Source: Actinomycetota bacterium (GTDB lineage Bacteria; Actinomycetota; Thermoleophilia; Gaiellales; Gaiellaceae). From it: a DNA stretch of 64,000 bases. The stretch spans positions 1 through 64,000 of the forward strand of contig VAWW01000023.1 in assembly GCA_005884575.1 (NCBI GenBank). The letters run 5' to 3'. Position 1 is the first letter of the stretch. Every line of letters starts with the position of its first letter. The notes beneath the pieces are model-generated. The model searched no databases. It saw nothing but the letters and a program-made list of their open reading frames with translations, and was not told where the DNA came from. Shown one piece after another: positions 12,319-47,924 of the stretch. Both the position numbers and the translations under genes were made by a program.

Positions 12319-19368
<7,050 letters not shown>

Positions 19369-35175: not shown

Positions 35176-36000
35176 TCAGGCGTCCCGTGTCATCGTCCGC
35201 CACACGCCGACGAGCACGGGGACGGCGATCCACGCCGCGATCACGGCGACCGCCGCTGCGGCCGACGTCGGAATGTCCGGACCCTGTGTCAGGAACCTCT
35301 GGACGGCCGCCGGTGCGAAGTGCAGCAGCGCCGTGTTCGGGAGTAGCTCCCGCCCGACGCCCAATGCGCCGATCGAGGCGAGGATCGGCGCGACCGCGAG
35401 GCGGAAAGCGAGCAGGATCCCGACCGTCTGCGTCCGCGAGCCGATCGCCGAGGCGACGCCGACCGCGAGGACGTAGAAGAGAGCCGCCGATCCGACCAGC
35501 CAGAGGCCCGACTCGACGAGCAGCGTCGTGGTCGGGACCGGCAGCGTTCCCGCGAAGACGACCGCGGCGACGGCGGCCAGTGCGTAGCCGGCCGCCACGA
35601 GCGGGAGCAGGAATGCGAGCCCGCCCGGGATCCGCGACGCGAACAGCGCCGCGCGCGAACGGCCGGTCACGACGAGCTCGCGGAAGACGCCCGCGCCGAG
35701 GTCGGATGCTCCGGCGGAAGCGCCGACGATCGTGGCCGCGACCGATCCGAGCAGGGTGAGCACGAACATCCCGTGACCGAGGTTCACCGTTCCGCCCGCC
35801 GGGCCGTGGTGCGCGGGATTGACGGCATGCAGGATCGCGAGCACGCCGTAGGTGACGATGCTCGCGCCGACGGTCATCGCGGTCACGGTCGCGACGAGCC
35901 CGCGGCGCTTGCGCAGCTTGAGCAGGTCGGCCGAGACGAGCGGCAGGAACGGGCGCGGCGCGCGCCGCGAGGCGGGCCGCTCGAGGGTGACGGCGCTCAT
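35176..36000 (-). CDS. ABC-2 type transporter permease
   Basis: From the ATG at 36000 the protein is 274 residues with about six membrane helices. It begins MSAVTLERPASRRAPRPFLP, continues with VSADLLKLRKRRG and holds hydrophobic stretches to the C-terminus. The start overlaps the ATPase stop by four bases. ATPase plus permease would form an exporter of the antibiotic- or lipid-efflux class, placed in an operon with the kinase-regulator pair. Confidence 0.9.
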   Translation of the reverse strand: MSAVTLERPASRRAPRPFLPLVSADLLKLRKRRGLVATVTAMTVGASIVTYGVLAILHAVNPAHHGPAGGTVNLGHGMFVLTLLGSVAATIVGASAGASDLGAGVFRELVVTGRSRAALFASRIPGGLAFLLPLVAAGYALAAVAAVVFAGTLPVPTTTLLVESGLWLVGSAALFYVLAVGVASAIGSRTQTVGILLAFRLAVAPILASIGALGVGRELLPNTALLHFAPAAVQRFLTQGPDIPTSAAAAVAVIAAWIAVPVLVGVWRTMTRDA

Positions 36001-36950
36001 GCTGCGTCCTCCAGTCGGGTGGTGATCTCCAGGAAGCGCTGCTCGAGGGACGCGTGCTGCGGCTCGAGCCGGTAGACGGGAATGCCGGCTTCGACGAGGC
36101 GGCGGTTGATGTCGGCGGCGGCTCGCGCGGCCTCGACGTCGCGGTGGAGGCGAATGTGCAGAGCGTCGTGTTCGAGTGTCACCGAGTCGACGGTGCGGTG
36201 GTTGCCGACGAAGATGGCCGCGCGGCCGTTGTCGGCGGAGGCGACGAGAAGCTCCGGCGCCCCCTCGGCGCGGAGCTCGTCGAGCGAGCCCTGGACGACG
36301 ACGCGACCGTGGTCGACGATCGCGATCGCGTCGCAGGTCCGTTCGACCTCTGCAAGGAGGTGCGACGAGATGACGATCGTCCGTCCCTCTGCGACGAAGC
36401 TGCCGATCAGCTCGCGGAATTCCTCGATCCCCGCCGGGTCGAGACCGTTCAGCGGCTCGTCGAGGACGAGCAGCTCGGGGTCGGCGAGCAGGCAGCGGGC
36501 GATGCCGAGGCGCTGCCGCATCCCCAGCGAGTAGGTGGCGACGCGGTCGTCGGCGCGGTTCGCCAGCCCCACGCGGGCGAGCGACGCGTCGATCCGCGTG
36601 AAGGCCTCGGAGCCCCGGGCCGCGGCGATGATCTTCAGGTTCTCGCGTCCCGTCAGGTGCCCGTGGAAGTGCGGCTCCTCGACGATGGCGCCGATGCGGC
36701 TGAGTGCCTCGCCGCGATGTTCCGGGACATCCAGTCCGCGGAGCTTGATCGTGCCGGCGGTGGCGGGGGTGAGCCCGAGCAGCACGCGGATCAGGGTCGT
36801 CTTGCCGGCGCCGTTCGGGCCGAGGTAGCCGAAGGCCGAGCCGCCCGGGATGCGGAGCTCGACGTTGTCGACGACCGTCCGGTCGCCGAACTTCTTCGTC
36901 AGTCCCGCCGTCTCGACGACGTACGGTGAGGTGGGTGTGTTGGTGTTCAT
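35997..36950 (-). CDS. ABC transporter ATPase
   Basis: From ATG 36950 the protein is 317 residues; an ATG at 36971 is also possible. Walker A is GPNGAGKTTLIRVLLG, the signature motif is TYSLGMRQRLGIAR and Walker B is LLVLDEPLNGLDPAG. A ~90-residue C-terminal extension follows the ATPase domain, as in DrrA/BcrA-type exporters. It energises the adjacent permease. The gene begins inside the open frame that extends from the upstream transposase. Confidence 0.94.
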   Translation of the reverse strand: MNTNTPTSPYVVETAGLTKKFGDRTVVDNVELRIPGGSAFGYLGPNGAGKTTLIRVLLGLTPATAGTIKLRGLDVPEHRGEALSRIGAIVEEPHFHGHLTGRENLKIIAAARGSEAFTRIDASLARVGLANRADDRVATYSLGMRQRLGIARCLLADPELLVLDEPLNGLDPAGIEEFRELIGSFVAEGRTIVISSHLLAEVERTCDAIAIVDHGRVVVQGSLDELRAEGAPELLVASADNGRAAIFVGNHRTVDSVTLEHDALHIRLHRDVEAARAAADINRRLVEAGIPVYRLEPQHASLEQRFLEITTRLEDAA

Positions 36951-37020
36951 GGCTCGAAGGTACGGGCGCATCGGTCGGGCGCTCGGACCGGTTCGATCCT
37001 CCGGGCAGTCGCACTTCCTC

Positions 37021-37467
37021 CTCCTTCTGGAGGAGGTGGTGGCGCGAGGCTGACCAGCGGTAGTCGTCGATGGTGGTGCAGATGCCGGCGCGGATGGGGT
37101 TGGTGAGGACGTAGGCGGTGGCGTTGGCGAGGTGTTCTTCGTCTTCGATGATCCAGGAGTGGAAGCGGCCGCCGAAGAGGTGGCCTTTGCGGCCGTGTTT
37201 CTGGTTGAAGGCGGCGGCGTGTTCGCCGTTGAGCAGTTCCATGCCGGCGGAGAGTTGCGGGACGGCCGTTTCGACGATCAGGTGGTAGTGGTTGCTCATC
37301 AGGCAGTAGGCGTGCACGGTCCAGCCGTGGCGGCGGACGCAGAGTGCGAGCATCGCTAGGAAGGCGAGCCGGTCGTCGTCGTCGCGGTAGATCGGGCAGC
37401 CGTCGACGCCGCGGGTGGTGACGTGGAAGCAGCCGTCGGGAAGCTGGGAGCGAAGCGGTCGTGGCAC
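37021..37467 (-). mobile_element. REP-associated tyrosine transposase (Y1/HUH), without its own stop
   Basis: From GTG 37467 (PRPLRSQLPDGCFHVTTRG) about 149 residues match the RAYT/IS200-like family. The HUH metal motif is SNHYHLIVET (residues 58-67) and the catalytic Tyr is probably Y119 in NATAYVLTNP. The frame does not stop after the domain; it stays open through the ABC ATPase in another frame and into the permease, so the native 3' end has probably been lost or replaced. Tandem 36-bp repeats lie 120 bases upstream. These transposases act on REP palindromes. Confidence 0.75.
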
Positions 37468-37587
37468 CAGGGCGACCGTAGCGGCGCGCAAGCCGGTTTC
37501 TGCCGCTGTGGAGAGATCGTCACAGTCTCGGCACAGCAGCCGAGCCCAGCAAGGCCCAGTCCCCTAGCGCCCAAACCGGACCCGACA

Positions 37588-37690
37588 GGGGCAGCCCCAG
37601 TCGCGGCTGTTTTGGAGAGGACTGGGGCAGCCCCAGTCGCGGCTGTTTCGGAGAGGACTGGGGCAGCGCCTGGCGTCACTGTTTCGGACT
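37588..37690. repeat. 36-bp tandem repeats beside the RAYT gene
   Basis: Two near-identical 36-base units (37588-37623 and 37624-37659, one mismatch) and a degenerate third (37660-37690) each contain GGGGCAGCCCCAGTCGCGG-like sequence. The GGGGC/GCCCC core is self-complementary. The third copy runs into the stop codon of the M23 peptidase gene. Confidence 0.85.
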
Positions 37691-38585
37691 AGGGGGTGCT
37701 GTTCGTCAGCGTCAGCCAGATGTGGGCGCGGGCGCTGTTGCCTTGCGTGTCGAAGACCGCGACGTCGAGGCGGTAGCGGCCGTCGGGAGTCGTCCGCGAA
37801 TCCCACGCGTGCGTGAGATAGAAGACGAGCGATCCGGGGCGGCCGGGCCGGTTCATCGTCGTCCACGGCGCGTAGACCTCGGTGAACCGCGTGCTCGCCG
37901 CGAGGAACGAGCGGAAGTCGAGGGCCGTCCGCCATGCGCCGGGGGGCGAGCCGTTGGCGACGAGGCGCCAGCGGACGTACGCCGGCGCGACCCGCACGCC
38001 ATCCCACGGCGGCGGCGGCAGCGGCGCCGGTGGCGTGTCGGATGTCTCGACGACGAGATCCACGACGCCCTGCACGGCTCCGGGATCGACGCGCCGCTTC
38101 CCCGCTACGACTCCGAGCGACGTCACGGTCGGCGACGTCGCGTCGACGTACGGTGCGATCCCGCCCGGCCGCAGCGGATTGACGTACTGATCGCCGTGCC
38201 TCTCGACGAAGTGCACGTGGCCGAACCCCTCCTTGATCGCCCCGATCCGGTCGCCGGGCTGCACGCGCGCACGGTCGGCGACCGTCGGGACGACGTGCCA
38301 GTACGAGAAGACACGGTCGCCGGTGTCCACGATGAGCGCCAGGCCGTCCGCCTGCACACGCACCTCTCCGGCCGCGACCGCGTACACCGGCGCACCGTCC
38401 GCGCCGCAGACGTCGATGCCGAAGTGGAACGAAGGCGGCTCGGTCCCCTGCTGGCGCGGATCGTCGAAGAAGCCGCGCACGGGATGCTGCCGGTTGACCG
38501 GCGCCAAAGGCCAGCCGTACGTCGCGCCCGCACCCGCCGGCGCCGCCAGTGCGATCGCGGCGAGGACGACGGCGGCCCGCGTCAC
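37689..38585 (-). CDS. Secreted M23-type metallopeptidase-like protein
   Basis: The GTG at 38585 is preferred because it overlaps the upstream stop as GTGA and gives a clean signal peptide (MTRAAVVLAAIALAAPAGA); an in-frame GTG at 38615 precedes it. The M23 zinc motifs are present: FHFGIDV (HxxxD) and GHVHFVE (HxH). The first half is the peptidase domain and the second ~150 residues look like a beta-sandwich domain. M23 enzymes cut cross-links in peptidoglycan. Translation is probably coupled to the short upstream frame. Confidence 0.85.
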   Translation of the reverse strand: MTRAAVVLAAIALAAPAGAGATYGWPLAPVNRQHPVRGFFDDPRQQGTEPPSFHFGIDVCGADGAPVYAVAAGEVRVQADGLALIVDTGDRVFSYWHVVPTVADRARVQPGDRIGAIKEGFGHVHFVERHGDQYVNPLRPGGIAPYVDATSPTVTSLGVVAGKRRVDPGAVQGVVDLVVETSDTPPAPLPPPPWDGVRVAPAYVRWRLVANGSPPGAWRTALDFRSFLAASTRFTEVYAPWTTMNRPGRPGSLVFYLTHAWDSRTTPDGRYRLDVAVFDTQGNSARAHIWLTLTNSTP

Positions 38586-47851: not shown

Positions 47852-47869
47852 AGCCGCAGCCCCGTCCGA

Positions 47870-47924
47870 GCCAGCCATGCCGGGGCCAGGCCCCGACGCG
47901 TCCGGAACGGACATGACCGCTGGC
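47870..47924. repeat. Nested palindromic element between convergent genes
   Basis: GCCAGC (47870-47875) and GCTGGC (47919-47924) enclose two further palindromes, CGGGGCC-A-GGCCCCG (47881-47895) and GTCCG-GAA-CGGAC (47900-47912). The multi-hairpin layout resembles a REP/BIME-type element and could act as a two-way terminator. Confidence 0.55.

Follow-up and report, generated by a model that had tools for sequence, protein, structure and literature searches.

Published accounts of RAYT transposases, the closest described systems to the gene treated here, portray them for the most part as single, immobile genes. In the sections of these papers on which we draw, RAYTs are said always to be flanked by two inverted REPs, with neither multiple copies nor moves found (PMC2817692); they are called single-copy genes that appear incapable of self-mobilization (PMC3116915) and genes that do not copy themselves (PMC8049555), and tnpA-REP is described as mostly single copy, with no evidence of mobility (PMC8266576). 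The relevant section of PMC8266576 also states that the E. coli enzyme is impaired when 21 or 34 residues are removed from its C-terminus and that loss of 13 residues raises its activity. In the corresponding part of PMC6006769, subclass 2.1 of the TnpAY1 proteins has a mean of 1.9 copies at 49.2% identity, and subclass 2.3, which is without REPs, a mean of 3.9 copies at 74.8% identity with signs of recent active spreading. Finally, TIRYTs carry a GGGGWSAS motif, according to the section of PMC3733652 concerned.

The window, by which we mean the whole stretch of 64,000 nucleotides that was analysed (G000:C82:1-64000), belongs to a 4.16-Mb genome, assembled in 130 contigs, that is 91.1% complete with 2.7% contamination. 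We think it probable that it holds a complete, naturally tail-less RAYT (TnpA-REP) with its own REP array, and that this unit was recently copied within the genome. A tail-less RAYT with REPs is a variation on a system already known; the interesting part is its identical twin with the same border.

The RAYT gene and its open reading frame

The gene lies on the minus strand and extends from a GTG at 37467 to about 37048. We place its start at this GTG from the alignment of relatives and from a -10-like site, TACGGT, which may be the -10 element of a leaderless start. Its features are as follows.

37048 to 37467, minus strand: RAYT coding part common to both genomic copies, from the GTG to the last shared base (...DDYRWSA; 140 codons)
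37282 to 37293, minus strand: HUH motif NHYH (N59, H60, Y61 and H62 invariant in a 29-row alignment)
37111 to 37113, minus strand: catalytic tyrosine Y119 of YVLTNP (Y119, N123 and P124 invariant in the same alignment)
37475 to 37480, minus strand: TACGGT, possible -10 element, 7 nt before the GTG, with similar sites before the starts of relatives as judged by eye
35176 to 37047, minus strand: continuation of the RAYT frame, which reads across an ABC ATPase gene in another frame and then enters a permease gene in that gene's own frame

The first-pass annotation had recognised a RAYT that keeps its HUH and tyrosine residues, and this identification stands, as both NHYH and the Y---NP signature given for class 2 in the relevant text of PMC6006769 are present, the latter as YVLTNP. 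The Y1_Tnp profile (PF01797) matches the beginning of the open frame above its cut-off (E 5.2e-7), and the NCBIfam RAYT model NF047646 matches with an E of 5.9e-21 over profile positions 4-146 of 146, reaching the last position, at a score of 74.9 bits that lies below the curated cut-off of 80. An AlphaFold (AF2) model of 37467-37042 (142 residues, 29 aligned sequences) has a pLDDT of 92.5, and its best fold match in the PDB is 4er8, the structure of a RAYT in complex with a REP hairpin (TMq 0.76 at 16% identity); a sequence search of the PDB gave no convincing relative (best E 0.52). The genome contains five RAYT-like places, that of the window included, and a search of plasmids gave no match. 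The stretch 36951-37047, which the first-pass annotation had included in the locus, is probably not RAYT DNA.

The same annotation had reported that the gene lacks a stop codon and that its frame runs on into ABC transporter genes, and so it does: the open frame extends from 37491 to 35176 without an in-frame stop (771 amino acids, or 763 counted from the GTG at 37467), and the run-on from 37047 alone comprises 623 codons. A stop-free run-on of such length is not rare in this window, which has 70% G+C; in 20,000 trials with random entry frames the median distance to a stop was 73 codons, with 43% reaching 100 codons and 6.2% reaching 600. Since random frames are often long in such DNA, gene ends that abut foreign DNA will often run on. 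It had further been considered that the locus could make a fused protein. This is conceivable as regards the open frame, which spans 763 residues and from residue 490 (MSAVTLERP) is the same as that of the permease, but nothing speaks for a function of such a protein. A functional RAYT-permease fusion strikes us as having next to no chance of being real: most of the about 350 codons between the two parts, and hence most of the extension before the permease, are ATPase gene read out of frame, frames as long as this one are common among random entries into this G+C-rich window, and the second copy of the gene, on contig C73, runs into unrelated DNA antisense to etfA.

Repeats upstream of the gene and across the genome

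Three tandem 36-bp palindromes stand in register upstream of the RAYT at 37584-37691, where the tandem repeat call gives 2.9 copies of 36 bp with 88% matches. The repeats of the window that concern us are these.

37580 to 37697, minus strand: array of three REP units of 36-bp period, GGGGCTGCCCC-type palindromes (R1 model and tandem repeats)
37504 to 37546, minus strand: leader box GTGACN6TCCACAG, a dispersed repeat (R2 match, E 1.9e-7, the box itself being in the model)
47856 to 47901, plus strand: solo REP-like unit (R1 match, E 2.3e-5)

The R1 model, built from six units with those of the window array among them, matches the array at 37580-37619 (E 1e-7), 37616-37661 (E 1e-12) and 37652-37697 (E 6e-10). 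The 19-mer palindrome has five matches in the window at up to 3 mismatches as against 0.05 expected from shuffles, and in the whole genome, on both strands and at up to 2 mismatches, ten matches at six sites as against none for the reversed control. Outside the two arrays, R1 finds nine solo sites in this genome at E <=1e-3 compared with three in 30 other genomes, where two of the nine were in the model and at most 150 candidates were scored per genome. By eye, at least four solos (L230, L232, L233 and L234) stand at or a few bases from a stop codon. The first-pass annotation had suggested that the tandem palindromes may be the RAYT's own REP substrates, had proposed a search of the genome for the repeat unit and had regarded its absence elsewhere as counting against the suggestion; the unit is present elsewhere, and the nine solo sites provide the dispersed cognate repeats that are expected of a RAYT. 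Judged from their occurrence at both RAYT copies and at about nine solo relatives, the palindromes beside the gene behave as its REPs. A divergent RAYT on contig C29 (L240) has a different type of upstream palindrome, with a similar solo at C67:99715 (L241), which fits the idea that every RAYT goes with a repeat of its own.

In other respects the array departs from what is described for REPs. The flanking by inverted REPs on both sides that the section of PMC2817692 concerned gives for RAYTs is not found here, where the array lies upstream only. The palindrome has no match downstream of either copy (up to 3 mismatches in the window, up to 2 in the genome), the 25 longest inverted repeats listed between 35500 and 39000 include no inverted partner across the gene, and a palindrome search of the window gave none either. 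No GT(A/G)G head was seen by eye at the hairpin foot of the array or solo units, and GGGGWSAS is absent from the window repeats, whose core is GGGGCAGC / GGGGCTGC.

The leader box occurs at 30 sites in the genome at up to 2 mismatches as against 2 for the reversed control. Examples of the form AGTGTGACN6TCCACA are found at G000 C10:67548, C79:14952 and C130:57157, and many solos are immediately preceded by one or another palindrome or motif (GGTACCAGGTAC, CCAGATGTCC, GCGCACACGTGTGTGAC), which gives the impression of a single tail serving several hairpin modules. We also considered whether the box is commoner in genomes with tail-less RAYTs. A one-sided rank test over both batches of genomes, 11 versus 25 of the family with our own left out, gave a p of 0.003; the second batch alone (5 versus 13 genomes) gave 0.25, genome size and completeness were uncontrolled, and G022 and G024, which are without a tail-less match, have 15 leader-box matches each. 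The association is not established. At 15371-18858 the window has a separate tandem array, in which a 276-bp unit is repeated 12.6 times with 81% matches.

The second copy, its border and the tail-less relatives

The RAYT unit on contig C73 is identical to that of the window in 603 of 610 alignment columns (99%), palindromic units included, of which the C73 array has two and the window array three. In the coding part, from the GTG to ...CGCTGGTCAGCC, the window copy is identical to L002 1525-1944 at 420 of 420 bases and the next bases differ; both copies lose identity at the same base, ...TGGTCAGCC, with unrelated DNA beyond. The two units have four different flanks and lie on contigs of 59.7 and 151.7 kb. 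With two copies, the gene departs from the single-copy, non-mobile state described for RAYTs. Outside this genome, in 129 genomes of the order and with four candidates scored per genome, the best match is 72% over 346 of 649 bases, and anything more similar is confined to fragments no longer than 219 bases; among 74 loci, no second case turned up of two copies in one genome that are more than 80% identical over the RAYT. Two near-identical units at unrelated places show that the REP-RAYT unit was recently copied within its own genome.

The case for twin units comes from one fragmented assembly, and no empty site was found. That the second copy is an artefact of binning or assembly nevertheless seems very improbable to us. 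While 130 contigs and 2.7% contamination leave room for such errors, the copies differ at 7 of 610 columns and have different flanks throughout, and the etfA next to the C73 copy is, outside its own genome, closest to that of a genome of the same family (69%; 41 genomes searched). The comparison for empty sites used orthologues of the ABC ATPase and of etfA; the adjacency of etfA and ettA, the right and left neighbours of the C73 copy, was not seen by eye in ten etfA relatives, one of which (L192) ends soon after etfA.

On the right side of the window copy an 11-base spacer is followed by a further palindrome, the ABC genes, and then genes for a histidine kinase and a LuxR-type response regulator. 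Two features are relevant to the border.

37017 to 37036, no strand assigned: palindrome CCTCCTCC-TTCT-GGAGGAGG, possible operator of the downstream ABC operon
37037 to 37048, minus strand: right border interval of the RAYT unit if the palindrome is host DNA, 37048 being the last shared base

The palindrome stretch shares 20 of 25 positions with the region upstream of the ABC orthologue of G040, a value that 1.7% of 3000 random segments reach; the upstream regions of the other five orthologues are weaker, with 4%, 7%, 15%, 24% and 36% of random segments as good. If the palindrome is the operator of the ABC operon or otherwise host DNA, this would hint, weakly, at a right border within 37037-37048.

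The first-pass annotation had considered it probable that an insertion or deletion cut off the end of the gene, and had named other copies ending at the same place as the observation that would speak against it. Exactly this is seen in the C73 copy, which loses identity at the very same base. Removal of a longer C-terminal tail at the window locus might be suspected because other RAYTs carry tails, of 26-162 codons in 49 of 50 long-tail rows (the 50th runs off its contig). We consider it quite improbable, given this common end, the completeness of the family profile and the closest relatives, in which a stop comes no more than about 15 codons (mostly 8-10) from the conserved W or none is near.

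But is the short end peculiar to this locus? In a tree of 70 RAYTs labelled as short (7), run-on (13, labelled by hand) or long (50), the labels change 8 times as compared with a mean of 18.7 in shuffles, and none of 200 shuffles gave a value as low. The clade of the window copy, of modest support (85/82), contains six run-on, six short and one long form, so that 12 of its 13 members are short or run-on. Run-on forms are found elsewhere in the tree too, and the tail was therefore lost or gained more than once. A change from FQ to FG near the W was tried as a mark of tail-less RAYTs and rejected, as 7 long-tail rows also have the G and 21 rows misfit.

Several tail-less RAYTs, moreover, look as if inherited in position. 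In seven genomes of the family, our own included, such a gene adjoins uvrA (L003, L013, L026, L014, L015, L243 and L245; the neighbour was confirmed as UvrA for L003 and identified by eye for the rest), with no stop before uvrA in five and a stop 9-10 codons after the W in two. Others abut a gene that may be WYL/PafB-like (L150, L156, L159, L254 and L260; the piece from L150 gave no Pfam match) or, as judged by eye, convergent genes (L018, L021, L248, L256, L259, L025 and L031). These conserved positions indicate that a short end characterises lineages and is not confined to the window locus. The uvrA-side genes lie directly upstream of uvrA, and their ends meet its promoter region and a GAAC..GTTC palindrome that resembles a LexA box. 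At L018 and L021 (G005:C57 and G035:C25) the RAYT and its convergent neighbour appear by eye to share one CTAG as the stops of both.

Then again, a common end by itself is no proof of the end of an element. The C73 copy is followed by the convergent etfA, and because the TGA stop of etfA lies inside the shared DNA it may have fixed the C73 end. An older unit could have been copied by recombination with an arbitrary end, or one copy could have been trimmed to the end of the neighbouring gene, both copies perhaps being inactive. The coincidence of the C73 boundary with the etfA stop codon agrees with such an accident, as does the packing of the relatives' RAYT ends against the stops and promoters of their neighbours, which deletion pressure would give, and one pair only was found. 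Yet there are no differences in 420 coding bases and hence no decay since copying, and in the window copy, with other flanking DNA, nothing recognisable follows the same base. On balance we judge an accidental end unlikely, if far from negligible.

We therefore return to the complete, tail-less RAYT as the reading that we favour. The unit would be compact, about 610-650 bp, and consist of the REP array, the leader box, a possible leaderless promoter and the RAYT coding region, with a right border that falls in, or directly behind, the final conserved codons YRWSA. A unit bordered in this way would be without a stop codon, and the neighbouring DNA would supply the stop and set the end of translation. 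The short RAYT is most likely functional as an HUH nuclease with its REP hairpins as substrate, and we infer that the unit was most likely copied when the RAYT, by its HUH activity, cut these hairpins as single strands and joined them again. Several points speak against this explanation: one such pair only is seen, in a fragmented genome and with no empty site; the etfA stop may have set the C73 end, and the alignments in favour of a host origin of the window flank are weak; no REP was found at the right end; the NF047646 score lies below its cut-off; and where no stop is near, translation would give a long hybrid protein or one that is broken down. A search of the literature for transposases without a stop codon of their own found nothing on RAYTs, which does not prove the absence of such reports.

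A further step would be that units of the tail-less clade are still mobile, as one-ended REP-RAYT elements that copy themselves, with hairpins at the left end only and the right border inside the coding sequence. We put this forward tentatively, as a possibility that we ourselves rather doubt. If it were true, each landing site would supply C-terminus and stop, and we would be dealing with a transposable unit that creates new C-termini as a matter of course and with a self-copying, REP-bearing RAYT, contrary to a purely domesticated view of these proteins. The common border yields a defined prediction of the cut site for the RAYT or another mechanism, and with the tail-less clade nature offers a way to find out if RAYTs can do without the C-terminal tail, which matters in the E. 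coli enzyme according to the passage of PMC8266576 concerned.

Comparison with described systems

The TnpA-REP/RAYT proteins of the REPtrons of E. coli, Stenotrophomonas and Pseudomonas share with the window RAYT the HUH and Y---NP motifs and the fold of 4er8, and likewise have REP-like palindromes next to the gene and dispersed over the genome. Different from these, the window RAYT has REPs upstream only, with no GT(A/G)G head seen, lacks a C-terminal tail and exists in two near-identical gene copies; its about nine solos also compare with usually more than 100 REP copies in the relevant passage of PMC2817692.

NHYH and Y---NP are equally found in the TIRYTs of TIRtrons (PMC3733652), which fall largely into TnpAY1 subclass 2.1 in the part of PMC6006769 that treats them, and by eye the upstream palindromes of some relatives carry GGGGTCAG, GGGACAG or close GGGGWSAS forms. 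The window unit itself, however, is unlike a TIRYT, as its core GGGGCWGC misfits GGGGWSAS, no inverted copy was found downstream and the long terminal inverted repeats at both ends are lacking. The window RAYT leaves no room for the 53-residue tail domain that the same part of PMC6006769 lists for subclass 2.1, whose within-genome copies are 49.2% identical on average as against 100% over the shared coding part of our pair. With IS200 of the IS200/IS605 family the unit has in common the HUH/Y1 fold, a small size with hairpins and near-identical copies at different sites; it differs from IS200 (subclass 1.1) in having Y---NP in place of Y---Q, no right-end hairpin common to the copies, and a fit to the RAYT profile.

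As regards copying, the nearest parallel is subclass 2.3, which the section of PMC6006769 on it describes as RAYT-like, with several copies per genome and signs of recent active spreading. These proteins differ in being long (median 325 residues), without flanking REP-like structures, found in Chromatiales and Alteromonadales, and on average 74.8% identical between copies. So far as this section goes, the spreading of subclass 2.3 counts against the novelty of mobile RAYT-like genes; it is the reported exception to RAYT immobility, and it is without REPs. The pair described here bears REPs and has identical coding sequence at unrelated sites, and so provides a concrete test case against the picture of mostly single-copy, immobile RAYTs drawn in the cited portions of PMC3116915, PMC8049555, PMC6006769, PMC8266576 and PMC2817692.
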